DNA of 25,635 bases from the IMG/VR virus record IMGVR_UViG_3300008012_003973, positions 1 through 25,635 of that record. One strand, written 5' to 3'. The translations under genes and the position numbers were made by a program. The notes under the pieces are model-generated. The model worked only from the letters and a program-made list of their open reading frames with translations, was not told the DNA's origin and ran no database searches. Every line of letters begins with the position of its first letter. The first letter of the stretch is position 1. Origin of the DNA: a virus. Below are positions 194 to 25,635 of the stretch, piece after piece.

Positions 194-532
194 ATGAAAA
201 TTAATGAATTTTACGATCAACCAATTGATGATAGTCTACCATATAATGTAGTCGACGATGTATGTATTTTTATGCGTAATGATCCTATGTTTTATCGTAA
301 AAGTTTTTTTCCTGCTATTAAGCGTATGCAAGAATGTAGTATGAGTGAAACAGAGTACGACAAAATTAAAGAATTAGGTCCTATGATAGATAAGGCTGCT
401 AGACTATATTGTTCTAAATTTAAAATTGGAAAAAGACCAGAAGAACTCTTGACAAAAGAAGACAAATATGCTTTAATACAAAAAGTATATGCAGAAGAAA
501 TGACAGAGATACGCAAGGGTACTTATAGATGA
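194..532 (+). CDS. Hypothetical phage protein, 112 aa
   Basis: The frame is open further upstream, but that part overlaps the previous gene. ATG 194, two bases after the upstream stop, is the natural start and gives MKINEF, an N-terminus like those of several downstream genes. The product is soluble, mostly helical and charged, with no signal peptide or membrane segment. Its stop overlaps the start of the next gene (ATGA at 529-532), indicating translational coupling. I do not recognise a family. Confidence 0.7.
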   Translation: MKINEFYDQPIDDSLPYNVVDDVCIFMRNDPMFYRKSFFPAIKRMQECSMSETEYDKIKELGPMIDKAARLYCSKFKIGKRPEELLTKEDKYALIQKVYAEEMTEIRKGTYR

Positions 533-1620
533 GATTTAGCGAATTCAAGATCTTAACCGAAGCGGCTAAGGTGGGTAGAGAATACCAACACCTAGAAGAT
601 CTTGTGTTCGTAGACGGCAGTGCAGGCGCAACAAAGGCTGTACATATTCTAAACAAACTAGGACACGATAGCAAAGACATTGCAATCAAATGGGATGGCT
701 ATCCTACTATGTACTGGGGCAGAGATAACAACGGTGAATTTGTTCTTGTAGGTAAGAACGGTTGGATGAAGGGTAACATCAGTAAGAGTGCAAAAGAACT
801 GTATAGTTTTATTACTAGCACGGGCAAAGGCGAAGACTGGCGTGAACGCTTTGCTAAAGAAATGGCAACTATCTTTAACATAATGGAACAAAGCACTCCA
901 GCATCATTTAGAGGATATGTATACGGAGATTTACTATATCATCCTGGTAAACCTTTTGACACATCAGATGCGGGTATTACATTTACTCCCAATCAAGTTA
1001 CTTACACAGTTGATCCTAATTCAGAGTTAGGCAAGCGTATGAGCAATACAACTGTAGGTGTAGTTGTACATACAAAGTATGCTGAGTTTGGTGACAAGTC
1101 AGGACAGCCTATTTCAGATGTAAAAGATCTTAATCAAGGCCCAGCACTTGTACTAGGACAAACATATGTTACGCATACGCCCGAAGTAGATACATCAGAA
1201 ACCAAAGACATACTAAAATTAGCACAAGCAAACGGCGCAGCAATTGATAAGTTTCTTGCTGGTGCAAAAGGATTAAGCAATCCTGCAGGAATTATTTACA
1301 CATATGTAAACCAAATGAGTAAAGGTAGAAAACTAGACAAATTAGAAACAGGGTTTTTTGATTGGTTAAAAACTAGTAAAGTAAGCCAAGGACAACAAGC
1401 ACGTCTAGCAGATATGCATCAAGAAAATCCTAAAGCATTACCTAGTATGTTTGGTTTAGTAAAAAGAATAATGGCAGCAAAGGATCACATCATACAACAG
1501 TTAGATGATGCTCCGGCTGATGTAAAACAAAGCACTAACGGTGAACAGGGCGGCGAGGGCTATGTGGCTCTAGGATCAAAAACTAAACTAGTGCCAAGAA
1601 CAAGATGGACACCGTCATGA
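529..1620 (+). CDS. Phage protein with KWDG (ligase-like nucleotidyltransferase) core, putative packaged protein
   Basis: A 363-aa protein. Residues 54-57 read KWDG within IAIKWDGYPT, which looks like motif I (KxDG) of the covalent nucleotidyltransferases: DNA/RNA ligases and capping enzymes. Further along, GYVYGDLLY (129-137) resembles motif III and VGVVVHTKY (176-184) resembles motif IV, in the expected order and roughly the expected spacing. Similar KWDG proteins of unknown function occur in marine T4-like phages. The N-terminus, MRFSEFKILTE|A, resembles the T4 capsid-targeting peptide with an LxE|A protease site after residue 11. It is coupled to its neighbours by ATGA overlaps at both ends. 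The ligase-like reading rests on motifs only; no activity is implied with certainty. Confidence 0.7.
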   Translation: MRFSEFKILTEAAKVGREYQHLEDLVFVDGSAGATKAVHILNKLGHDSKDIAIKWDGYPTMYWGRDNNGEFVLVGKNGWMKGNISKSAKELYSFITSTGKGEDWRERFAKEMATIFNIMEQSTPASFRGYVYGDLLYHPGKPFDTSDAGITFTPNQVTYTVDPNSELGKRMSNTTVGVVVHTKYAEFGDKSGQPISDVKDLNQGPALVLGQTYVTHTPEVDTSETKDILKLAQANGAAIDKFLAGAKGLSNPAGIIYTYVNQMSKGRKLDKLETGFFDWLKTSKVSQGQQARLADMHQENPKALPSMFGLVKRIMAAKDHIIQQLDDAPADVKQSTNGEQGGEGYVALGSKTKLVPRTRWTPS

Positions 1621-3263
1621 GATTAAGAAATTTATACGAAGCACCTGCAAGAAAAGTAGTTGCAATTATGCCTGGAGGGTTCCATCCGTTCCATCCTGGA
1701 CACAAAAGCCTATACGACTGGGCTGTAAAAACGTTTGGTCAAAGTAATGTTTATGTAGCAGCAACTAACGACACAGCATCAAGACCGTTTCCTTTTGAAA
1801 TAAAAAAGAAACTAGCAGGTATGGCAGGTGTTCCTTCAGACAAATTTATACAGGTTAATACTGCTCCGTTTAATGCCACAGCATATAAACATCTAATAGA
1901 TAATGATACTGCATTAGTATTCGTTAGGAGTGAGAAAGAACGCAATGTAACTCCTTTGCCTGATCAAATGAAAATAGACAAGGCCACAAAAAAACCCGGC
2001 AATGAACCGAGATATTATAGAAGTTACACAGGTAAAGATCTAAACACAGCAGACGAAATGGGTTACATAGCATATGGTCCTACTATTAACTTTGACTTTA
2101 GTGGTATGCAGATTAAGAGTGCAAGTGAGTTAAGAGCTACTTGGCCTGAAATGTCAGACGAAGATAAACTAAAGGCTGCTAAACTAATGTACGGCAATGG
2201 TGCTCCTGTTGCTGTGAAACTATTAAATAAAGCACTAGGTGATACAGAAGCACCAGTAGGCGAAGGCATTGACGAAGAAAATAAGGGACTATACTATAAC
2301 GTAAATAAACGTAAAAAAGCTGGTACTAGTCGCAAAAAAGGACATCCTAAGGCTCCTACTGACAAGGCATGGAAAGATGCTGCAAAGACTGCAAAAGAAG
2401 ATCTAGAAGAAGCACAAACAGGCGATGTGTATATGCGCTTCAAAGTTAAGCCGCCGTTAGATAAAAACAGAGGCAAGCCAACACTAATGGCATTTGCTGG
2501 ATTTGCAAACACACCGGGTGAACTAACACTTGATACTGCTAAAATGAACTTTAATGTTCTTACAAAGAAACAAGATATTGTCAATGCTGTCAAAAAAGTA
2601 ATTGGTGATAAAATCTTTATTGGGGCTGAGAAAGTTGTTGTGTATAATGACGGCGCAGTTAATCCTAAGAAGTTTCCGCAGTACAGTGAATTCCTTGATT
2701 GGATACAAAAGTTTGGTAAAGAAAAAGTACAAGTTGTAGACAAGCCCGACAGTGACGAAACAGGCGAAAAAGGTCCGGGCAAGAAACGTGTAAAAGCAAA
2801 GTGGGCTAACAAGAAAAACTACACTGACGATAATATCGAAACAACAAAATATTTTACAATCGACAACAACAGACTAATGAAATTTTTACAAAAGTCGGCG
2901 CCGAAGATTATGCAAGCATACAGACCTGCAACTAAACAATTTGTTATGGAGCCTGCACAATATAAAACATTCCGCAACTGGATGCGTTCGCCTGAAGTAG
3001 TAAGCAAGTTTGGTGATACTAATGTTAAGGTTGATAAGTCAAAGTCATTCTCACAGTCCGTTGGCAAAGAGTTTGAACAGATTGAAGAAGATATTCCAGC
3101 AGTAGGTGATATAGCAGCAATGGCTGCTGTGGCTGGATTAGCAGCGCCTGTAATGGCTAGTTTAATCAAAGGTGCATACAAGACTGGCAAGAATCTTTTA
3201 AAGATTAGAAAGATTGCACGTAAAGCAGGTGTAAGACTAGCAGACAGGGTAATGGGCGAATGA
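1617..3263 (+). CDS. HxGH nucleotidyltransferase-domain protein with long basic tail, putative packaged protein
   Basis: ATG 1617 is chosen over ATG 1605 because it gives the ATGA overlap seen at neighbouring junctions and the N-terminus MRLRNLYE|A. Length is 548 aa. Residues 14-175 form a cytidylyltransferase-type Rossmann domain: GGFHPFHPGH with HPGH at 26-29, and SASELR at 168-173 in the place of the family's ISSTxIR motif. This is as in NMN or pantetheine-phosphate adenylyltransferases, but the substrate is unknown. The middle is Lys-rich (NKRKKAGTSRKKGHPKAP, a motif recurrent in marine phages). Residues about 494-517 are hydrophobic and Ala/Gly-rich, followed by a basic helix to the end. 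It sits directly after the KWDG protein, so the two may act together. Confidence 0.75.
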   Translation: MRLRNLYEAPARKVVAIMPGGFHPFHPGHKSLYDWAVKTFGQSNVYVAATNDTASRPFPFEIKKKLAGMAGVPSDKFIQVNTAPFNATAYKHLIDNDTALVFVRSEKERNVTPLPDQMKIDKATKKPGNEPRYYRSYTGKDLNTADEMGYIAYGPTINFDFSGMQIKSASELRATWPEMSDEDKLKAAKLMYGNGAPVAVKLLNKALGDTEAPVGEGIDEENKGLYYNVNKRKKAGTSRKKGHPKAPTDKAWKDAAKTAKEDLEEAQTGDVYMRFKVKPPLDKNRGKPTLMAFAGFANTPGELTLDTAKMNFNVLTKKQDIVNAVKKVIGDKIFIGAEKVVVYNDGAVNPKKFPQYSEFLDWIQKFGKEKVQVVDKPDSDETGEKGPGKKRVKAKWANKKNYTDDNIETTKYFTIDNNRLMKFLQKSAPKIMQAYRPATKQFVMEPAQYKTFRNWMRSPEVVSKFGDTNVKVDKSKSFSQSVGKEFEQIEEDIPAVGDIAAMAAVAGLAAPVMASLIKGAYKTGKNLLKIRKIARKAGVRLADRVMGE

Positions 3264-4063
3264 AAATTAACGAAATCATCGAAGACGTAAAGTTTATAAA
3301 CGATACTGCACATGCCATTGAGCGTGTTAAAGTTGCTGCTGAAATGTGCAACAAACTAGGCAATACTCCTATACTATATAGAATGTTTAAAGGTGGCGAA
3401 ACTCAAGGCACTGATGCTACAAATCTTATGATCAAAGTGAATAACAACGACGGATCTCGGAAGGCTGTAAAAGGTGACAGTCATTTCTTCCAGAAAAAAA
3501 TCTTTGCCGGTCTAGGAGTGCAACACCCTACACAAGCATTAGTCCGTACACCTAATAACATAAAAGGATTTCACGGTACAAACTTTATTATGATACCAAG
3601 CGGGGATATTAAAGCATATTGGAACCCAGAAATACCAGATTTAGGTAGTTTTGAAGGCTACGATGAGGAATATCTGACAAAGCATGATGGTGGACACAGT
3701 AGAGCTATAGTGCGACCACGTGATATGGATGCAAGTGAAGAAGTTCAACGTGCTGTTAAAGGTTATAAAAAAGGTATTCCAAATCAACGCGAATGGGACG
3801 GTGAGGTTATCATAGATACACCTTTTTATTATATGCTAAACCTCAAAGAATTTTTACAAAAGTATGCTGGTAAGAAAAACAAAGAACTTGTAAATGCTCC
3901 ACAGTTTGTTAGACGCAAAGGTCCAGACTACGGCGAAATCAAAAAAGATTTACTACAAGCAAAACTTAAAACTTATCGTGATGTTGGTTGGTATTTGAGC
4001 AATCCAACAATGAACTTTTTAAACTGGTGGGCAGAAAAAGAGAAACAAAAATACAATGGATGA
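3260..4063 (+). CDS. Putative ADP-ribosyltransferase-like phage protein
   Basis: A 267-aa protein starting MKINEIIE|D, with an IxE site after residue 8. ILYR at residues 38-41 sits where mono-ADP-ribosyltransferases of the R-S-E class have their LYRG arginine. The stretch GFHGTNFIMIPSGDIKAYWNPEIPDL (split: GFHGTNFIMIPSG at 103-115, then WNPEIPDL) follows the pattern of phage ART-like proteins. EWDGE at 178-182 is a candidate catalytic glutamate region, though it is not the exact ExE spacing. T4 packages an ADP-ribosyltransferase (Alt) that modifies host RNA polymerase, which makes the context suggestive. The assignment is tentative; a structure-based search is needed to distinguish it from an unrelated fold. 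Confidence 0.6.
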   Translation: MKINEIIEDVKFINDTAHAIERVKVAAEMCNKLGNTPILYRMFKGGETQGTDATNLMIKVNNNDGSRKAVKGDSHFFQKKIFAGLGVQHPTQALVRTPNNIKGFHGTNFIMIPSGDIKAYWNPEIPDLGSFEGYDEEYLTKHDGGHSRAIVRPRDMDASEEVQRAVKGYKKGIPNQREWDGEVIIDTPFYYMLNLKEFLQKYAGKKNKELVNAPQFVRRKGPDYGEIKKDLLQAKLKTYRDVGWYLSNPTMNFLNWWAEKEKQKYNG

Positions 4064-4265
4064 ACTAGAGTATATTAAAAAACTAGCAGGTGTAAATGAA
4101 TTCAAAGGTTACACAGAGTATACTCTTGAGAATATTAGCGATGCAGCCGCAGAGAATCGCAAAAAAGAAAAAGAACAAAACATTAAGCCAGGAGATGCTA
4201 AATGGTTTGAACTATGGTTCAGTCAACCTAAAATGCAAGGTCGAGGCTTTAGGGGAAGAAAATGA
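4056..4265 (+). CDS. Small conserved marine-phage protein, 69 aa
   Basis: ATG 4056 overlaps the end of the previous gene by 8 bases, and the stop overlaps the next start (ATGA 4262-4265). The C-terminal half contains GDAKWFELWFSQP, which I recognise from memory as a recurrent motif (WFxLWF...P) in small proteins of marine T4-like phages; function unknown. The N-terminus MDELEYIKKLAGVNE is acidic and helical but does not show a clear LxE processing site, unlike its neighbours. A second frame across the same bases (4096-4305) is a shadow. Confidence 0.7.
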   Translation: MDELEYIKKLAGVNEFKGYTEYTLENISDAAAENRKKEKEQNIKPGDAKWFELWFSQPKMQGRGFRGRK

Positions 4266-5920
4266 AGATGAAAGATTTGACCGAAAACGGCGGGCGTATT
4301 GTTAAAGGTGTGAATACAACAGTCGATGTAGGTACAGACGAAATATCTAAACAGGCTAAAAAGTTTGGAAATTCTGTTGATAAAGATGGCTTCCCACCTA
4401 CTATGTCTACAGTTGTTAAACCAAAGAAAACTACAGTTAAAGAAGGCTATCGACTACGTTTAGAGCGTGACAAGAGTGCTAACATGTTAGTTCTACATAT
4501 TAAGGATACTCGTACAGGTCGACGTTCAGAAGTACGAGGAAAACTAGGGTACGAAACAGACGGTTATGATCCTAATGACAAACTACATCAATTATTAGAC
4601 AAAGTAGGTCGTAGTGCTAGTGTAAGCGATATGATGAACGGTGATGTTGTACATATTAATCCCAGACATCCACAAGGTCCTAGTGCTACAAAAGCAGCAA
4701 GCGCTATTACAGCAGAAACAATACTAGAAAAACTTGGAGAGATTGCTCCTAACACAGAAATCTATGTTGACATGGATGGTGTACTTGCTGACTTCTTCGG
4801 CGAATGGGCTAAAGCAATGGGCAAGAAAAGTTTTAGAGATATAGAAGATCCAGAAGCAGCAATTGGCAAAATAAAAGACATCAAGGACTTTTGGCTAAAT
4901 CTTCCAGTGCTACCACAAGCAAAACAATTACTTACACTAATTAAAAAAGTAAAAGGAAAGTATAAAATTTGTACTAGTCCACTAGCAGATGATCCTAGAA
5001 GTGAGCCACACAAACGTGAATGGGTAAAAAAGAACCTAGCATTCTTTCCTCCAGAAGAAGTTATTGTTACACACAACAAGCCACAATTTGCAACTCAAAA
5101 AGATGGAACACCTAACATACTAATAGACGACTACGGTGTTAATATTAATGCCTGGGAAGAAGCAGGCGGCATAGGTTTCAAATATAAAGATCATAAGTTT
5201 GATAGAACTGCTAAGGATATTAAACAGCATATGCAAGAGCCTGTAGAAGAAAACTTTGCTGACGGTAAGAAAAAAGGCAAAGTATATAATGAAAGTACAG
5301 ACTTAAATAGTCTTAGAAAATTTGTTAGATCTCAACGAGAAGCACCTGATCAAGTTCTTTATCAAATGATGATGGCTCCAGATACTTATGGACACTCAGC
5401 ATCAAACTTTGTAAGAAGTTGGTATGAGAAAACAAAAGAAGAAAATGGTTTAAATGATGTAGATTCAGCGTTAGAAATAATGGTTGATCAACTTGGATTG
5501 AATGAAAACTTTAATGAAGGCATAACAACTATTGATCTAAAAAACGCATTAGAAAAAATATCTAAGAACGCAACAAACGGTGAGCGTTTAGTAGATGTCT
5601 TTATAATGCGTTATCAACATAACATGACATTCAAGCAAATTGGAGATGAAATTGGCACAAGTATCGATCGTGCTAGGCAAGTATACTTACGAGCTGAAAG
5701 AATGATACGTAAGTCACTACAGGATTATGATCCAAAAGTAAAAGAAAACTTTGCTGACGGTAAGAAAAAAGGCAAAAGCAGACCAGGACGTGTAAAACGC
5801 TCAGGTGCTAGTTGTAACGGAAGTGTTACATCCCTGCGTAAGAAGGCCAAAGCAGGTGGCGAAAAAGGGAGGATGTACCATTGGTGCGCAAACATGAAAT
5901 CAGGACGGAAGAAGAAGTAG
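4262..5920 (+). CDS. Multidomain protein: HAD 5'(3')-deoxynucleotidase-like domain, sigma-70 region 4-like HTH, basic Cys tail
   Basis: A 552-aa protein starting MKMKDLTE|N (LxE after residue 8). A HAD phosphatase domain is clear: VDMDGVLADFF at 169-179 (catalytic D170 and D172), CTSPL near 238, and ILIDD at 286-290 as the last motif, as in NT5C-type deoxyribonucleotidases. Residues about 440-485 read as sigma-70 region 4: VFIMRY, TFKQIGDEIGTS, then RARQVYLRAERMIR. The C-terminus (about 507-552) is very basic with two Cys (SCNGSV and HWCANM) and probably binds nucleic acid. Two copies of NFADGKKKGK bracket the sigma-like part (see repeats). The combination is unusual. I infer nucleotide or phosphate chemistry plus DNA or RNA polymerase contact, possibly delivered from the capsid. 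Confidence 0.8.
   Translation: MKMKDLTENGGRIVKGVNTTVDVGTDEISKQAKKFGNSVDKDGFPPTMSTVVKPKKTTVKEGYRLRLERDKSANMLVLHIKDTRTGRRSEVRGKLGYETDGYDPNDKLHQLLDKVGRSASVSDMMNGDVVHINPRHPQGPSATKAASAITAETILEKLGEIAPNTEIYVDMDGVLADFFGEWAKAMGKKSFRDIEDPEAAIGKIKDIKDFWLNLPVLPQAKQLLTLIKKVKGKYKICTSPLADDPRSEPHKREWVKKNLAFFPPEEVIVTHNKPQFATQKDGTPNILIDDYGVNINAWEEAGGIGFKYKDHKFDRTAKDIKQHMQEPVEENFADGKKKGKVYNESTDLNSLRKFVRSQREAPDQVLYQMMMAPDTYGHSASNFVRSWYEKTKEENGLNDVDSALEIMVDQLGLNENFNEGITTIDLKNALEKISKNATNGERLVDVFIMRYQHNMTFKQIGDEIGTSIDRARQVYLRAERMIRKSLQDYDPKVKENFADGKKKGKSRPGRVKRSGASCNGSVTSLRKKAKAGGEKGRMYHWCANMKSGRKKK
5247..5281 (+). repeat. 35-bp direct repeat, copy 1
   Basis: This copy matches 5742-5776 exactly over 35 bases. It lies in frame within the 552-aa protein and encodes ENFADGKKKGK. 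It marks the junction between the HAD domain and the following helical region. Confidence 0.9.
5742..5776 (+). repeat. 35-bp direct repeat, copy 2
   Basis: Second exact copy of the repeat at 5247-5281, in the same reading frame. It marks the junction between the sigma-like HTH and the basic Cys-containing C-terminal module. The 495-bp offset is a multiple of three, so recombination between copies would delete 165 codons cleanly. Confidence 0.9.
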
Positions 5921-6051
5921 CATTTTATTGTAAAATGAGTAAATTTCACGAGGCAAATAGAACCTCTACTAACGAACGTAATGAGTTTTGGCGAAAACAT
6001 TCGCAGCGTATACTTGATCCCGAAACAAGTTTTAATATGGGAAAATTTTAA
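5884..6051 (+). CDS. Possible small protein (38-56 aa)
   Basis: An open frame fills the space between the 552-aa gene and the next one, ending TAA 6049-6051, one base before ATG 6053. GTG 5884 (55 aa) and TTG 5881 lie behind GGGAGG at 5867-5872; ATG 5935 gives a 38-aa product starting MSKFHEANRTS. The peptide is polar and charged (NEFWRKHSQRI). The tight fit to the next start argues for translation, but the start codon is uncertain and I know no homologue. Confidence 0.4.
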   Translation: MRKHEIRTEEEVAFYCKMSKFHEANRTSTNERNEFWRKHSQRILDPETSFNMGKF

Positions 6052-6052
6052 T

Positions 6053-6232
6053 ATGAAGATGAATGAAATTATAACTGAAAATACAGCATCCGCAGTCAGT
6101 GTTGTTGTACAACCAATAGGTATGAAACCAATTAAGCGCAATCCAGACGGTACTGTACCAAATGCATTAGACGGTGATAATGCTGTCCTAAGCGGCAACA
6201 TGAAAAAACGCAAGACTAAGAAAAAGGCATAA
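6053..6232 (+). CDS. Small putative packaged protein, 59 aa
   Basis: The open frame extends upstream to 5981, but ATG 6053 gives MKMNEIITE|N, the same N-terminal pattern as neighbouring genes (IxE after residue 9), and follows the preceding stop by one base. After the proposed cleavage point a 50-residue neutral to basic peptide remains, ending in MKKRKTKKKA. The small size, CTS-like start and basic tail resemble T4 internal proteins. That is an inference from features, not from homology. Confidence 0.65.
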   Translation: MKMNEIITENTASAVSVVVQPIGMKPIKRNPDGTVPNALDGDNAVLSGNMKKRKTKKKA

Positions 6233-6236
6233 ATAC
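6228..6236 (+). promoter_or_regulatory. Putative T4-type late promoter
   Basis: CATAAATAC followed by ACTATAAC matches the T4 late consensus TATAAATACTATT closely. It lies 26 bases upstream of ATG 6262, which has GGAG at 6252-6255 as ribosome binding site. The last bases of the preceding gene overlap the motif. Confidence 0.55.
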
Positions 6237-6261
6237 ACTATAACGTATTACGGAGTAACTC

Positions 6262-7086
6262 ATGAGAGAACAAGAGATTAGCGAAGGCCTGGGAGAATTA
6301 GCAGATCGTGCAGAGCGTGATCACGAAGTGCAAATGGCCCGCAGTGAACTATATAAATTAGCAAAGTATGCTATTAAACTACACGACATCTTAAAAGGTG
6401 TTAGCGAAGCAGAAGGCCTAGAAGGTTGGGTACAATCTAAAATTACTAAATCAGCTGATATGATTAGTAGCGTATATCATCATATGGATTACGAAGAAGC
6501 AAGTGAACCAATGGAACCAGATGCACTTAATCCTGTAAAAGAAGCAAAAGATACACATTGTTCAGACAAGTGTTGCGGTGCTGACGTAAAAGCAGAAGAT
6601 TGTACTTGTAAACCAAGTTGTCCTCACTGTAACTGCAATGCAGTAAACGAAACATTATCACCTGAAGATAAAAAGCTTGTAGACAAAATGTATAACAAAG
6701 ACGGTACACTAACTGCTATTGGTAAAAAAGTAATGGACCACGGCAAGAAAGATAAAAAGCCGGCAGTTAAAGAAGCCAAAAAGAAAATGGTAAAAGATCC
6801 TAAAACAGGAAAAATGGTACCAGACTATGCAGCAGATGGCAAAGGCAAAAACGATCTAAAAAAAGAATCACTCCAAAACAAACTAGCAGCCAAACTTTCT
6901 GAAGCAACACAAACTTGCAACGAATGTGGCAAAACTATGTTAACTGCTACCGAGAAAAAAGAACTAGCAAATCTGCCAGAAGGTAAGCGTCACGGCAACA
7001 GCAAAATCTACAAGAAGTGCTGGAAAGGCTGTCGTAAAGTAGCAGGCGTACCACGCGGTGAGCCGGGCTCATGCAAGTGTGATTAA
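6262..7086 (+). CDS. Cys- and Lys-rich putative packaged protein, 274 aa
   Basis: Starts MREQEISE|G: IxE followed by G is the ideal T4 prohead-protease site, here after residue 8. Residues about 10-80 are predicted helical. A Cys-rich patch follows (HCSDKCCGADVKAEDCTCKP, then CPHCNC) at about 95-125. A long Lys-rich stretch comes next, and a second Cys set lies at the C-terminus (CNECGK, KKCWKGCRK, SCKCD). The Cys pairs suggest metal binding, probably zinc, and the basic charge suggests nucleic acid contact. A strong RBS and the late-type promoter at 6228 precede it. No known family is recognised. Confidence 0.7.
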   Translation: MREQEISEGLGELADRAERDHEVQMARSELYKLAKYAIKLHDILKGVSEAEGLEGWVQSKITKSADMISSVYHHMDYEEASEPMEPDALNPVKEAKDTHCSDKCCGADVKAEDCTCKPSCPHCNCNAVNETLSPEDKKLVDKMYNKDGTLTAIGKKVMDHGKKDKKPAVKEAKKKMVKDPKTGKMVPDYAADGKGKNDLKKESLQNKLAAKLSEATQTCNECGKTMLTATEKKELANLPEGKRHGNSKIYKKCWKGCRKVAGVPRGEPGSCKCD

Positions 7087-7095
7087 GGAAAAGTT

Positions 7096-7890
7096 ATGGA
7101 CTGGCATAAACTACAACACACTCTTTTTGAAATTGAACCAACAGATAGAAATGCTGATTTAGCAAAGTTGACAGGTGCAGCTAATAGCTCCGTAGAAGCA
7201 GCGCCTACAAAAGATTATGTAAAAGAAAGTGTTGAAGTTGCGCCAGGTAGCATGCCATTGGGTATCGATAGTGTGGCTGACTTTGCTGCACTAGCAGGTG
7301 TACGTATAGATGAAACTAGAGCAGGTAAGCCAGGTGAGCAATCAAGACATGGTGGAAAAATGCCTAAAGCAAAACCTGGACGTACTAATCATCCAGATAC
7401 GGGTAAACTTGTAGGTGAAGAAGATAATGATTCTATCCTACAAAAAGGATATAAATTAGCAACTAAAGGTGCATTAGCTCCAGATTCATTTGAGAAAAAA
7501 GTTAAAGATGTTGTCGGTGGATCTGGTAAACCTAACAAGGCAGCACCTACAACTAAGGCAGATCCTGCTTTAGCAAAAAAGAAAGCAGTTAGTTGGAAAG
7601 TGTTCTTACAACAGCACACTAAACAACTACAACAAATAGCAGGTGATCCTGCAAAGAAACAAGCATTTGATCAATTTATGGCTAAAATAGGTGAAGCACA
7701 AGAAACACCAAAACCAAGAGATCCAAGTTCAAAAGATCTTGACGCACTAAGACGTAGTGGAGCAGGGGGCGCTCACAAACAGAAGAAAAAAGTTCTACCA
7801 CGTAAAGAAAAACATAAGGGCAAAGCGTATGAAAGCAGCATTAAAGAAATGTTACTACGCAAGTTAAACGAAAAGAATGAACGAACTTAA
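7096..7890 (+). CDS. Lys-rich, low-complexity putative packaged or scaffold-type protein, 264 aa
   Basis: ATG 7096 follows AGGA at 7087-7090. The N-terminus MDWHKLQHTLFE|I has an LxE site after residue 12. The body is rich in Ala, Lys and Gly with little predicted fold (AAPTTKADPALAKKKAVSW). A short helical region, KVFLQQHTKQLQQI, is followed by DPSSKDLDALRRSGAGGAHKQKKK; similar SGAxGAHKxKK tails are familiar from marine T4-like phages. The C-terminus ends in SIKEMLLRKLNE, an amphipathic helix. It overlaps the next gene by 14 bases. Function unknown. Confidence 0.65.
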   Translation: MDWHKLQHTLFEIEPTDRNADLAKLTGAANSSVEAAPTKDYVKESVEVAPGSMPLGIDSVADFAALAGVRIDETRAGKPGEQSRHGGKMPKAKPGRTNHPDTGKLVGEEDNDSILQKGYKLATKGALAPDSFEKKVKDVVGGSGKPNKAAPTTKADPALAKKKAVSWKVFLQQHTKQLQQIAGDPAKKQAFDQFMAKIGEAQETPKPRDPSSKDLDALRRSGAGGAHKQKKKVLPRKEKHKGKAYESSIKEMLLRKLNEKNERT

Positions 7891-9935: not shown

Positions 9936-12605
9936 ATGAGTTATGTAGACGCATTGTTTGATCGTGATCAAGATATGATCCGTGTAGTTGAACGCAAAGA
10001 CGGTAAAAGAGAATACCGCGAATATCAAGCAAAATATACATTTTATTATAAAGACCCAAGAGGCAAGTACAAGAGTGTGTACGGAGATCCTCTTAGTAGA
10101 GTTGTATGCAAGAATACAAAAGACTTTCGTAAAGAAGTAGCAATAAACAAAGGCAAGGAACTTTTTGAGAGTGATATTAATCCAATATTTCAGTCATTAT
10201 CTGAAAACTACCTCAATCAAGATGCGCCTAAACTTAATATTGCGTTCTTCGATATTGAGACTGACTTTGATCCAGAGCGTGGGTTTGCTGATCCTGCTGA
10301 TCCATTTATGCCTATTACTTCTATATCTGTATACTTACAGTGGTTAGAAACAATGGTGTGTTTAGCAGTGCCGCCAAAAACACTTACAATGGATCAAGCA
10401 AAAGCAGAACTTGAAGGTATTGAAAATGTAATGCTGTTTGAACGTGAAGGCGATATGATCGACACTTTCTTAACGCTAATCGAAGACGCTGATATTTTAA
10501 GCGGTTGGAACTCAGAAGGTTATGATATTCCGTATACTGTAAACAGAACTATGCGTGTACTAAGCAAAGATGACACTAGACGTTTTTGCTTGTGGGGACA
10601 ACTGCCTAAGAAGCGTGAATATGAAAAATACGGGAAGCAAGCAGTTACATTTGACTTAGTAGGTCGTGTACACTTAGACAGTTTAGAACTGTATCGCAAG
10701 TACACATACGAAGAACGTCACTCATATCGATTGGATGCAATTGGCGAGATCGAAGTAGGTGAAAACAAAGTGCCATATGAAGGCACACTTGATCAACTAT
10801 ATAACAATGACTTCCGTAAGTTTATTGAATATAACATTCAGGATACTGCACTACTTGACAAATTAGATAAGAAACTACGTTTTATTGATCTGTCAAACGA
10901 ACTAGCACATGCAAACACTGTTTTGCTAGCCACTACAATGGGCGCTGTTGCTGTTACAGAACAAGCTATTGTTAATGAAGCACATCACAGAGGATTACAG
11001 GTTCCTAATCGTCCAAAGCGTGATGACGAAAACACACAAGCAGCAGGTGCATATGTTGCATTTCCAAAGAAGGGATTGCACAAGTGGATTGGTTCGATGG
11101 ATTTGAACTCACTGTATCCGAGTGTGATTCGTGCATTGAATATGGCACCTGAAACAGTTGTAGGACAAATACGTCCTGAAATATCAGATGCTCGTGTAAC
11201 AGAAGACATGGGTCTAAAGAAAAAATCTTTTGCAGGCAGTTGGGAAGGGCGTTTTAGCACAGAAGAATACGAAGCAGTTATGGAGCAACGCAAGGACATT
11301 GCACTTACTATTGACTGGGAAAACGGTGGTAGTGACGTACTAAGCGGTGCTGAAATACACAAATTAATCTTTGATAGTAATCAACCTTGGATGCTTAGTT
11401 CAAACGGTACTATATTTACAACAGAGTTCGAAGGCGTTATTCCGGGTATCTTAAAACGCTGGTATAGCGAACGTAAAGACTTGCAGAAAATGCTGAAGAA
11501 AGCAAAAGACGCAGGTAACACAGCAGAGATTGAATACTGGGACAAACGTCAGTTGGTTAAGAAGATTAACTTGAACAGTTTGTATGGTGCTATTCTCAAC
11601 CCTGGGTGCCGTTTTTTCGATAAACGTATTGGGCAGTCTACTACACTAACAGGACGTACTATTGTTAAACATATGTCAGCAGAAGTAAACAAGGTCATTA
11701 CAGGCACGTATGATCATGTTGGTGAAGCAATGATATACGGCGACACTGACTCTTGTTATTTTAGTGGATATCCTACGCTTAAAAGTGAAATTGATGCAGG
11801 TAACTTGCCGTGGGACAAAGACAATGTAATCAAACTGTATGATCAGGTATGCGAAGCAGCAAATGCAACGTTTCCAGACTTTATGATGCAAGCATTTCAT
11901 TGCCCTAAAAGCCGTTCAGATGTTATTGCAGCAGCAAGAGAAATTGTAGCAGAATCCGGCTTATATATTACTAAGAAGCGTTACGCTGCACTTGTGTATG
12001 ACATAGAAGGCTTTAGAAGTGATACAGACGGAAAGCCGGGCAAAGTAAAAGCAATGGGCTTGGACTTGCGCCGTTCGGATACTCCGGTTTTTATGCAGCA
12101 GTTTTTAAGTGAGCTATTGCTTATGGTGCTTACTGATGTACCACAAAAAGAAATACTTGATAGTATTACAGAATTCCGTAAAGAATTTAGTAATCGCCCA
12201 GGTTGGGAAAAAGGTTCTCCCAAACGTGCAAATAAAGTAGGTCATTATCAACGTCTTGAAGAAAAGCAAGGCAGAGCAAATATGCCAGGACACGTTCGAG
12301 CTTCAATAAACTGGAATACACTCAAGCGTATGAACGGCGATAAATATTCGCAAGAGATAGTAGATGGTATGAAAGTTATTGTTTGTAAATTAAAACCAAA
12401 TCCGTTAGGCTATACTAGCGTTGCGTATCCAACAGATGAACTACGCTTGCCAGATTGGTTTAAGGAATTGCCATTTGATGATGATGCAATGGCAGAAACT
12501 ATTATTGACAACAAATTAGATAACTTAATTGGTGTGCTTAACTATCCATTAGAAGATACTAAACAGCATACTACGTTCGGCAGTTTGTTTGAATTTGGAG
12601 ATTAA
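9936..12605 (+). CDS. 43: Family B replicative DNA polymerase (T4 gp43-like)
   Basis: Copies the phage genome 5'-3' and proofreads. Length is 889 aa (T4 gp43 is 898). Exonuclease motif I is FFDIETDF with D106 and E108. NSEGYDIPY and YNIQDTALL are exonuclease II and III regions. Polymerase motif A is DLNSLYPSVIR with D389, motif B is KKINLNSLYGA, and motif C is YGDTDS with D603 and D605. All catalytic residues seem present, and no intein or intron interruption is seen. ATG 9936 is placed behind AGGAG at 9926-9930; ATG 9932 is out of frame. It stands alone between a membrane protein and a DUF2061-like gene, downstream of the promoter at 9278. Confidence 0.97.
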   Translation: MSYVDALFDRDQDMIRVVERKDGKREYREYQAKYTFYYKDPRGKYKSVYGDPLSRVVCKNTKDFRKEVAINKGKELFESDINPIFQSLSENYLNQDAPKLNIAFFDIETDFDPERGFADPADPFMPITSISVYLQWLETMVCLAVPPKTLTMDQAKAELEGIENVMLFEREGDMIDTFLTLIEDADILSGWNSEGYDIPYTVNRTMRVLSKDDTRRFCLWGQLPKKREYEKYGKQAVTFDLVGRVHLDSLELYRKYTYEERHSYRLDAIGEIEVGENKVPYEGTLDQLYNNDFRKFIEYNIQDTALLDKLDKKLRFIDLSNELAHANTVLLATTMGAVAVTEQAIVNEAHHRGLQVPNRPKRDDENTQAAGAYVAFPKKGLHKWIGSMDLNSLYPSVIRALNMAPETVVGQIRPEISDARVTEDMGLKKKSFAGSWEGRFSTEEYEAVMEQRKDIALTIDWENGGSDVLSGAEIHKLIFDSNQPWMLSSNGTIFTTEFEGVIPGILKRWYSERKDLQKMLKKAKDAGNTAEIEYWDKRQLVKKINLNSLYGAILNPGCRFFDKRIGQSTTLTGRTIVKHMSAEVNKVITGTYDHVGEAMIYGDTDSCYFSGYPTLKSEIDAGNLPWDKDNVIKLYDQVCEAANATFPDFMMQAFHCPKSRSDVIAAAREIVAESGLYITKKRYAALVYDIEGFRSDTDGKPGKVKAMGLDLRRSDTPVFMQQFLSELLLMVLTDVPQKEILDSITEFRKEFSNRPGWEKGSPKRANKVGHYQRLEEKQGRANMPGHVRASINWNTLKRMNGDKYSQEIVDGMKVIVCKLKPNPLGYTSVAYPTDELRLPDWFKELPFDDDAMAETIIDNKLDNLIGVLNYPLEDTKQHTTFGSLFEFGD

Positions 12606-23631: not shown

Positions 23632-24318
23632 ATGAGCAAAGCGGAACAATTAAAAGCCCGTCTAGAAGATCTAGGCATTCGTTACTGGGCTGGCGACAAC
23701 ATTTCTAAAGTCCTACAAAAAGGTGATAAAGAAGAACTTATTGAAAATGCTACAGTAGCATTTGAAGGTGTGTTAGATGCACTATTAATTGATCGTCATA
23801 ACGATCCTAATTCACAAGGTACAGCAAGACGTCTTGCTAAGATGTACTTTAATGAGATTATGGCGGGACGTTATGATCCTGCACCAACAGCAACAGCATT
23901 TCCAAACGATTCAGACGATCGTTACGAAGGTATGCTTGTTGTGCGAAGTGAACTTAAAAGTATGTGTTCGCATCATCACCAGCCAGTAGCAGGTGTTGCA
24001 TACATTGGTATTATTGCCGCAGACAAACTGATTGGTTTGAGCAAGTATACACGTATTGCACAATGGTGTGCTAGACGTGGGACGCTACAAGAAGAACTTG
24101 CAAATGACATTGCACGTGAGATTGCAAAAGCAACAGGTGCAGAACACTTAGGTGTATATATCCAAGCAACACACGGTTGTTGTGAAAATCGAGGTATTAT
24201 GGCAACCAGTAGTCTTACACAAACAACTGTGTTGCGTGGTGCATTTAAAGATGACGCAGGTACAAAGAAAGAGTTTTTTGACAATATTAAACTACAACAG
24301 GAGTTTGCATCAAGATGA
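23632..24318 (+). CDS. folE: GTP cyclohydrolase I (FolE)
   Basis: Converts GTP to dihydroneopterin triphosphate, the first step to 7-deazaguanines (and folate). 228 aa, usual length. SMCSHHHQPVAGVAYIGI gives Zn ligands C112 and a His in 114-116 (bacterial motif CEHHLLPF), GLSKYTRIAQWCARRGTLQEEL is the substrate-binding region, and ATHGCCENRG holds the third Zn Cys (183 or 184). ATG 23632 follows GGAG at 23622-23625. Own promoter and hairpin upstream. The last 30 bases are duplicated at 24931-24960. With queE downstream and dpdA upstream, queuosine-type DNA modification is the likely role. Confidence 0.95.
   Translation: MSKAEQLKARLEDLGIRYWAGDNISKVLQKGDKEELIENATVAFEGVLDALLIDRHNDPNSQGTARRLAKMYFNEIMAGRYDPAPTATAFPNDSDDRYEGMLVVRSELKSMCSHHHQPVAGVAYIGIIAADKLIGLSKYTRIAQWCARRGTLQEELANDIAREIAKATGAEHLGVYIQATHGCCENRGIMATSSLTQTTVLRGAFKDDAGTKKEFFDNIKLQQEFASR
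24289..24318 (+). repeat. 30-bp direct repeat, copy 1 (folE 3' end)
   Basis: Encodes KLQQEFASR and the stop codon, including the ATGA overlap. It matches 24931-24960 in 29 of 30 bases. The two copies bracket the 59-aa gene and hemJ. Confidence 0.9.
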
Positions 24319-24960: not shown

Positions 24961-25127
24961 AAATTGCAATATATACTATTGGACTTTTAATTGCTATTGC
25001 GATAGGTGTCGGTGGCTGGTATCTAAAGCGTGAAATCAATGCTTGGTTGTTTTATGACGGCGCAACACAAGAAGTTGTTTGTGAAATGGTTAAGCCTGAA
25101 TATTTAAAAGAAGGAGCGTGTGAATGA
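24957..25127 (+). CDS. Small membrane-anchored phage protein, 56 aa
   Basis: Starts in ATGA overlap with the leader ORF. An N-terminal membrane segment ([19 protein letters not shown]) precedes a short soluble part with two Cys, [17 protein letters not shown] recall similar VKPEYLKEG ends in small marine-phage proteins. It overlaps queE by four bases. Function unknown. Confidence 0.65.
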
Positions 25128-25635
25128 AACTACGCTATTCAGAAGCATTTTATAGTGTGCAAGGTGAAGGCAAGTATGTAGGAGTACCAAGTGTATTCTT
25201 GCGTACATTTGGTTGTAACTTTCGTTGTATGAACTTTGGTACTAACGAAACAAAAAATCGTTGGGAGCAACATGCAGAAGGTAACCGTTATAATGCAGAA
25301 GTAAAAGCATTAATTGACGCAGGTGTACACGAAACAACTGAAAAGTTTGAAGACTTGCCAATTATTCATACAGGCTGTGATACATATGCAAGTATCTATC
25401 CAGAATTCAAACACTTTAACAAAGAAGCAACTATTGACGAAGTAGTTGAACACCTATTGTCACTTACACCAGAAGGCAAGTGGACAATGGATAATGGTCA
25501 GGATGTACACCTTATTATGACAGGTGGTGAACCGTTATTAGCGTGGCAGCGATTGTATATCGAACTGTTCGAACATCCCCGTATGCAGGATTTAAAAAAT
25601 GTTACATTTGAAACAAACACTACACAACCTTTACA
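25124..25635 (+). CDS. queE: QueE-like 7-carboxy-7-deazaguanine synthase, 3' end outside the window
   Basis: Radical SAM enzyme that in the known family rearranges carboxy-tetrahydropterin into 7-carboxy-7-deazaguanine. ATG 25124 overlaps the previous stop; 170 residues are visible before the window ends. [25 protein letters not shown] matches QueE in parts (FYSVQGEG, then GVPSVFLRT), followed by C31-NFR-C35 of the cluster motif. The position of the third Cys (38) is Phe. TGCDTYAS (C85) looks like the displaced CDTxxA part of the same motif. MTGGEPLL is the SAM-binding GGEP motif. Cluster binding with a split motif is an inference. Confidence 0.85.

Follow-up and report, generated by a model that had tools for sequence, protein, structure and literature searches.

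The whole viral contig of IMG/VR record IMGVR_UViG_3300008012_003973, 25,635 bases long, was analysed here (the window) and represents a fragment of a T4-superfamily phage. On its plus strand, between positions 529 and 7890, lies a block of genes in which an earlier note had seen seven proteins with an N-terminal leader resembling the capsid targeting sequence (CTS) of T4. Our analysis indicates that the block is, by its gene content and order, a syntenic cargo island with exchangeable bodies. Five unrelated proteins encoded in it are probably cargo loaded into the head through a leader of 8-11 residues, M[K/R]-h-x-x-h-(h)-x-E (h, hydrophobic), and then cut and carried there; they are the products of the open reading frames (ORFs, named by their start positions) 529, 1617, 3260, 4262 and 6053. 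The family B DNA polymerase gene of the window (gp43) is located at 9936-12605 (phrog_262, E 1e-197), and the nearest isolates by polymerase are the rhizobial jumbo phages Phosso of Sinorhizobium (50%) and Atu_ph07 of Agrobacterium (45%). At the DNA level, a megablast search of the block against phage records gave no match.

All seven N-termini described earlier are present as written, and four of the starts (529, 1617, 3260 and 4262) overlap the upstream stop codon. With the candidate cut marked by a bar, the leaders read MRFSEFKILTE|A in ORF 529 (529-561), MRLRNLYE|A in ORF 1617 (1617-1640), MKINEIIE|D in ORF 3260 (3260-3283), MKMKDLTE|N in ORF 4262 (4262-4285) and MKMNEIITE|N in ORF 6053 (6053-6079). 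Apparent leaders also open the Cys/Lys-rich ORF 6262 (MREQEISE|G; 6262-7086) and ORF 7096 (MDWHKLQHTLFE|I; 7096-7890). The window leaders have hydrophobic residues at position 3 and at 6 (and 7), with E at 8 or 9, and ORF 529 bears a longer form. We described them with a simple pattern ([LIF]xE ending at residues 7-14), a stricter one (hydrophobic residues at 3 or 4 and at 6-8, the second followed by xE) and a looser one ([LIFMV]xE ending at 6-14).

To measure conservation we compared the N-termini of orthologues, keeping only families that had at least three distinct N-termini and excluding sequences more than 97% identical as well as alignments whose start was distant from the N-terminus. 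The stricter pattern was kept in 27/34 distinct orthologue N-termini for ORF 529, 11/14 for ORF 1617, 6/7 for ORF 3260, 9/10 for ORF 4262 and 5/5 for ORF 6053; pooled, these five families gave 58/70, against 0/104 in 13 other window families. With the looser pattern the corresponding counts were 60/70 and 15/104. The leader of ORF 3260 was retained in a homologue matched at 28% identity, and that of ORF 1617 in 12/12 close loci (one of them nearly identical to the window), while six distant loci were leaderless and started at the catalytic body (18 of 20 loci compared, the two without an N-terminus being left out). By this comparison, five of the seven leaders are conserved features. The other two were rejected. 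Orthologues of ORF 6262 (for example MTNKKVQE and MVKKTNE) matched the stricter pattern in 0/8 cases and the looser one in 6/8, keeping E-GLG but not the residue two before E, and those of ORF 7096 matched in 2/7, with forms such as MDWHKLQQTLFA and TLF[EAQ]. In both cases the N-terminus appears to be conserved in another way and to resemble a leader by chance, the rejection of ORF 6262 being the less firm of the two.

The leader is also more frequent than expected in the window. When the dubious ORFs with starts at 3, 5884 and 9644 were excluded from the block-versus-rest counts, the simple pattern occurred in 7/8 block genes and 5/34 other called genes (Fisher p 2e-4) and the stricter one in 6/8 and 1/34 (p 3.6e-5), p values that are flattering because the block was picked by this very motif. 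The scan against shuffled N-termini that the earlier note had proposed did reveal an excess: all 45 called ORFs together held seven stricter matches, whereas 300 shuffles of residues 2-20 averaged 0.30 and never exceeded 3. Congruently, observed and shuffled counts were 8 and 1.4 in relative G001, 6 and 1.1 in G002, 6 and 1.0 in G004, 6 and 0.7 in G006, and 5 and 0.4 in G007, with little or no excess in G003 (3 and 1.0). Ignoring the choice of block, clustering of leaders within eight consecutive genes reached p 0.017 in the window, 0.005 in G001, 0.003 in G003 and 5e-5 in G004, and was not significant in G002, G006, G007, DLP_6, P-TIM40, T4 and S-CREM2 (p 0.05 to 1). Among uncurated families, 12/190 had at least 60% leader-bearing members, compared with a shuffled mean of 2.3 and a maximum of 8 in 50 runs; this is supportive yet diluted, because families such as MKKRTRSILEE were included.

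The placement of the cut motif could be followed in DUF6267, the family of the ORF 529 body. We counted homologues with the body start GR-x-x-HLED in the first 90 residues, a criterion that sets aside DLP_6, fused proteins such as L064 and the cyanophage homologues that lack a leader. In this set [LIV]xE lies within nine residues of the body in 35/36 distinct N-termini, the next residue being A (30 of the 35), S (3) or E (2), and the leader E falls anywhere from residue 9 to 51. The site remains fixed while leader length varies, and therefore it behaves like a protease recognition site. Some of the long leaders hold an insert between two [LIV]xE sites, such as a Cys-rich one in L021 and a Lys-rich cassette in G006, and T4 internal protein IPI, with its cleavage site at residue 19, provides a precedent for them.

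Moreover, comparison of homologues suggests that the leader is an add-on separable from the body. Unlike the protein of the window, the DUF6267 proteins of S-SZBM1 and P-TIM40 have no leader and start where the mature body starts, and the six distant nucleotidyltransferase loci (two distinct N-termini) likewise start at the mature body. In P-TIM40 and S-SZBM1 the leader is found on the neighbouring cytidylyltransferase and not on DUF6267; in DLP_6 it is on both genes. The ORF 1617-type leader heads a different nucleotidyltransferase subfamily in L260, and in L003 and L083 the ORF 4262 relative has a MKINEI/V-type leader, unmatched by the stricter pattern, directly before an inner domain. In the structural models of DUF6267 and ORF 3260 the leader has a predicted local distance difference test (pLDDT) score under 50.

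Head genes were sought in 24 records, mostly fragments: four of these contain Peptidase_S77 and five contain gp23. Relative G001 (187 kb) encodes both a gp21-type Peptidase_S77 and gp23. In gp23 of G001, NYLAE|T at 41 is a candidate site corresponding to FLTE|A at 65 in T4 gp23; the site at 41 was picked by analogy because earlier [L/I]xE sites exist at 6 and 18. A protein encoded between gp21 and gp23, a scaffold by position only, starts MLDALKTLFE|N, the acidic protein adjoining gp21 has LLIAE|D, and gp21 itself has NFLRE|T. The likely cuts in these G001 head proteins are thus followed by N, D or T, which is consistent with the leaders DLTE|N and IITE|N of the island. Outside the island, a gene near gp17 (L102 17958-18530, that is G001 37958-38530, minus strand), with relatives in G002, G006 and G007, starts with leaders such as MKSLKQYLAE|S and MKKFLEYIVE|S, conserved in 3/3 distinct family members, and is a further candidate for a packaged protein. 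In T4, the small protein gp61.1 (L157 18966-19130; annotated as hypothetical) has a CTS-like start, MKTFKEFIKE|D, and a Lys/Glu-rich tail.

Cultured cyanophages allow leaders to be compared with proteins that mass spectrometry has detected in virions. For S-CREM2, 52 virion proteins are listed in Table 3 of PMC10665884 (this paper and PMC3037559, PMC9602691, PMC9026906, PMC3012670, PMC5694885 and PMC5349666 are cited throughout from the accessible parts of their text). With gene starts as deposited, the pattern [FYL]xx[FY][ILMF]xE in the first 30 residues, which imitates the T4 IPIII leader, matched 6/52 of these virion proteins and 2/167 others (p 0.003). The six are the S-adenosylmethionine (SAM) hydrolase, Cas9 (residues 19-25), gp13, the APH-like kinase, gp136 and the cytidylyltransferase, and none of them is among the 24 named structural proteins. 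With another pattern, 6/28 non-structural or unknown virion proteins matched, against 7/167 others (p 0.004). The S-CREM2 cytidylyltransferase detected in virions starts MKNFSSFLTE|A. Virions of S-SM1 are reported to contain a cytidylyltransferase, T4-GC190 (PMC3037559), and the S-SM1 enzyme starts MKKFSAFLNE|A. In S-SZBM1, protein S-SZBM1_140, a cytidylyltransferase listed among virion proteins in Table 1 of PMC9146016, starts MRFRQFIIE|A, and its leaderless DUF6267 neighbour S-SZBM1_141 is absent from that virion table, a short list of 30 proteins. In 78 of 80 viral-contig loci related to S-SZBM1_140 (two without residue 1 were left out) we found 23 distinct N-termini, of which 21 have the leader; the remaining two have a TTG start codon and read TFHVFITE|A. 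Virions of S-SCSM1 are reported to contain an NMNAT (PMC9602691). The accessible text of PMC10665884, PMC3037559, PMC9146016 and PMC9602691 names no targeting leader for these virion enzymes, and the four papers were not among the matches of a literature search for 'capsid targeting sequence'. In the virion-associated Cas9-like protein of S-CREM2 (gp12; L163 7704-10313) the start is longer, and the CTS-like stretch LRFASFMAE|A occupies residues 17-25.

The earlier note had argued that a common leader implies a common destination. This is well supported for ORFs 529, 1617, 3260, 4262 and 6053, because the cut motif is conserved at the body, leaderless homologues exist, leaders and bodies are exchanged, a relative has candidate sites in its head proteins and cyanophage virion proteins bear leaders; for ORFs 6262 and 7096 the orthologues do not support it. 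In T4, ten N-terminal residues of IPIII are reported to be enough to have it incorporated, with residues 4 and 7 mattering for targeting and 8 and 10 for processing, and the internal proteins and Alt enter the cell (PMC9026906). The window leaders follow this arrangement in a shortened form. By the route we propose, the leader would dock the protein to the scaffold core during prohead building, a gp21-type prohead protease would cut after [L/I]xE so that the leader departs, and the mature body would remain in the head beside the DNA. Packaging and leader cleavage in the source phage are inferred from these comparisons. Ejection into the host, for which T4 IPI and Alt are the models, is put forward with less confidence than packaging: the mature bodies probably enter with the DNA and would act at once, as Alt and IPI do.

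Several results weigh against this reading. Two of the seven leaders fail the orthologue comparison, and E is followed mostly by D, E, K, N or G rather than A in ORFs 3260 and 4262. The nucleotidyltransferase of the HTVC008M/Melnitz relatives (MKTLKELLRKK) and their HAD proteins (MKYSAFKAET, MMKKERVKMT) are leaderless. There was no clear excess of the stricter pattern over shuffles in DLP_6 (2/254 against 1.1) or P-TIM40 (2/235 against 1.2), and in T4 it matched 7/277 called ORFs against a shuffled mean of 2.2 and a maximum of 7, finding IPII, IPIII and gp24, missing IPI, Alt and gp22, and matching DNA ligase. The IPIII-modelled pattern has 0 matches in the window; over all 52 S-CREM2 virion proteins the other patterns were weaker (p 0.025, 0.059 and 0.029), and the 8-residue leaders (ORFs 1617, 3260 and 4262) have no match in the readable proteomes, where only 9-10-residue forms occur. 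The two earlier sites of G001 gp23 count in the same direction. The 25,635-base fragment contains none of gp21, gp22 and gp23, and the exact late promoter TATAAATA is absent from both strands of the window. Our searches found no virion proteome for the source phage or a close relative, and the accessible text of PMC5349666 holds none for DLP_6.

Among other explanations, the leaders could bring their proteins to the prohead as core or scaffold helpers that are later degraded or lost, like most of T4 gp22, gp67 and gp68, and are not ejected effectors. That the G001 proteins around gp21 carry the same cut motif and that T4 IPIII influences head assembly (PMC9026906) would fit such a role, but several of the bodies are large and, unlike scaffold proteins, have enzyme domains or conserved motifs resembling active sites, and homologous cytidylyltransferases are detected in purified cyanophage virions, so we consider helpers of this kind unlikely.

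It is quite improbable that the N-termini resemble each other by coincidence, through phage start-codon context and amphipathic first helices, and play no part in packaging. The simple motif is indeed common, as seen in the 5/34 other window genes and the 15/104 control orthologues that match [LIFMV]xE, and two of the seven leaders are not conserved; however, the seven matches against 0.30 in shuffles, the 58/70 against 0/104 in orthologues and the fixation of [LIV]xE at the body boundary despite a more than fivefold change in leader length speak against chance. A location on the neck, tail or baseplate, with the prohead protease cutting the motif incidentally or never, would agree with the position of DUF6267 elsewhere among small genes that we took, by eye, as structural (among the listed part of 52 of 80 DUF6267 loci, chosen by removing fragments and duplicates), and with a stretch of ORF 6262 that resembles a protein encoded between S-SM2 gp16 and gp17. 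But the T4 protease acts within the prohead (PMC9026906, PMC5694885), the leaders match candidate sites of head proteins, and the named tail proteins of S-CREM2 include none of its leader proteins, which makes this location very improbable indeed.

The reading of the block as a cargo island draws on its gene order in relatives. Leader genes with varying bodies are located upstream of gp43 in G001, G004, L005, L014, L170 and L171, and the same island genes occur in L010 and L083, where gp43 is not among the listed genes (end of the contig or of the listing); in G004 and L171 the island lacks DUF6267. Short Lys-rich cassettes, located C-terminally or in linkers, are shuffled among unrelated island proteins of the window, G001, G004, L005, L010, L014, L170 and L171, with examples such as SGASCxGSVTxLRxxAK...MYHWCANMKSGRKKK, KKFDDPGAPYAIAWAQHNK and KAGTSRxKxHPKAPTDKAW. 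In the window one cassette lies in the C-terminal region of ORF 1617 (about 2286-2402) and another at the C-terminus of ORF 4262 (about 5801-5917). These cassettes may bind DNA in the head. The MYHWCANMKSG cassette was found in 14 called proteins, 8 of them with the leader pattern, and we do not claim it as a second packaging signal because the counts are small and many are orthologues.

The bodies behind the leaders differ, and most of the labels given to them in the earlier note, namely ligase-like, nucleotidyltransferase and HAD, found profile or fold support. The body of ORF 529 (562-1620) matches the DUF6267 profile PF19782 (E 7e-26). In an alignment of the window protein with 33 of 80 loci, K54-W-D-G57 (the putative nucleophile motif, at about 688-699), G133-D134, G341-G-E-G-Y (E343, G344) and K351-x-K353, within KxKLVPR, are invariant in the 34 sequences. 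KxDG, EG and KxK follow each other in what we take to be the order of the ATP-dependent ligase superfamily, as in T4 Rnl2, archaeal RNA ligase and DNA ligases; unlike these, DUF6267 has a helical region of ~100 residues (225-327) before the EG motif. Its model has a mean pLDDT of 85, with residues 1-17 under 50. In a second structural comparison the top 25 rows are all DNA, RNA or tRNA ligases (Z 4.9-5.9), the best match reaching Z 5.9 over 96 residues at 3.7 A and 18/25 alignments starting at model residue 54, while neither Foldseek (best E 0.16) nor a PDB profile search gave a significant match. Since a Z of this size is no proof alone, we regard DUF6267 as a probable ligase-type nucleotidyltransferase, resting on motifs and the structural model.

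The body of ORF 1617 (1641-3263) has a cytidylyltransferase/NMNAT-like domain with the HxGH motif in the form HPFHPGH, followed by a long C-terminal region; it scored 22.5 bits with CTP_transf_like PF01467 (cut-off 21) and 25.7 bits with NCBIfam TIGR00125, slightly below the cut-off of 27.7. ORF 4262 (body 4286-5920) had been called a HAD-sigma fusion: its NT5C-type HAD 5'-nucleotidase-like domain is above the cut-off, and its sigma-70 region 4-like stretch falls slightly below. ORF 6053, with 59 residues, has a small body (6080-6232) with the basic end KKRKTKKKA. For ORF 3260 (body 3284-4063), which belongs to no family, the proposed ADP-ribosyltransferase (ART) label is no longer claimed but may still apply: the PDB profile search, Foldseek, VIA-align (best Z 2.5) and Pfam (7 members) gave nothing relevant, and its model is of moderate confidence (mean pLDDT 72.7, other models 49-62). 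Defence-system models matched none of the six block proteins searched.

What the bodies do in the host is inferred, and our proposal is a tentative, rather doubtful one. The ligase-like DUF6267, the NMNAT-like enzyme and the HAD phosphatase might form a pre-loaded kit that repairs cleaved tRNA or nicked nucleic acid and rebuilds NAD+ before any phage gene is read. Arriving with the DNA, such a kit could blunt abortive systems of the host that act by RNA cleavage or NAD+ destruction, and the leader would serve as an exchangeable label behind which bodies are swapped as host defences change.

Loading of the CTS type is already known in T4, where the internal proteins of T-even phages are diverse with only the CTS conserved (PMC3012670) and where it was suggested that the CTS lets T4-like phages load various proteins (PMC9026906). 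The island proteins resemble T4 IPI, IPII and IPIII in their short leader, which combines a basic residue with hydrophobic positions and [L/I]xE, in their diverse bodies and in having a small member with a basic end (ORF 6053). They differ from them in the lineage-specific form of the leaders, of 8-11 residues, in the larger size of all bodies but one (an enzyme domain is recognised in two of them, and a third is probably of ligase type), and in the grouping of their genes in one syntenic island upstream of gp43. Alt, the packaged ADP-ribosyltransferase of T4, is likewise an enzyme carried as cargo, and its leader, removed by a cut after ITE-6, is very short (PMC5694885), but we found no Alt homology in the block and no detectable ART match in ORF 3260. 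Cytidylyltransferase or NMNAT-like cargo is shared with the virion enzymes of S-SM1, S-CREM2, S-SZBM1 and S-SCSM1, and the leader with those of the first three.

As far as the literature was searched, the enzyme-rich cargo island, the short leader dialect, the exchange of bodies behind it, the link of the leader to cyanophage virion enzymes and an enzyme class for DUF6267 are new. In their accessible text, the cyanophage papers report a cytidylyltransferase, a kinase, a SAM hydrolase and Cas9 in particles and ask whether they are carried, giving no entry route. A readable address label would explain how virion enzymes enter and would allow candidate packaged proteins of uncultured phages to be put forward from sequence, so that the question of which proteins marine T4-like phages inject becomes directly testable; DUF6267 would gain a likely enzyme class as well as a site where it probably acts.

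Finally, some other genes of the window deserve mention. Between ORFs 3260 and 4262 lies a conserved island gene of ~70 residues (4056-4265; MDELxxIKKLAGxNEF, MDELEYIKKLAGV), which is leaderless (stricter pattern in 0/16 orthologues) and whose IKKLAGxNEF motif resembles a FAALAGVRIDE stretch inside ORF 7096. The N-terminal part of ORF 6262 is similar to SSM2_109 of S-SM2 (E 8e-12). Further downstream are genes for heme oxygenase (PF01126; 22624-23160) and a UPF0093 membrane protein (PF03653; 24494-24919), as well as GTP cyclohydrolase I (23632-24318) with a QueE-like radical SAM gene near it (25124-25633), a pair that may serve 7-deazaguanine metabolism or DNA modification.

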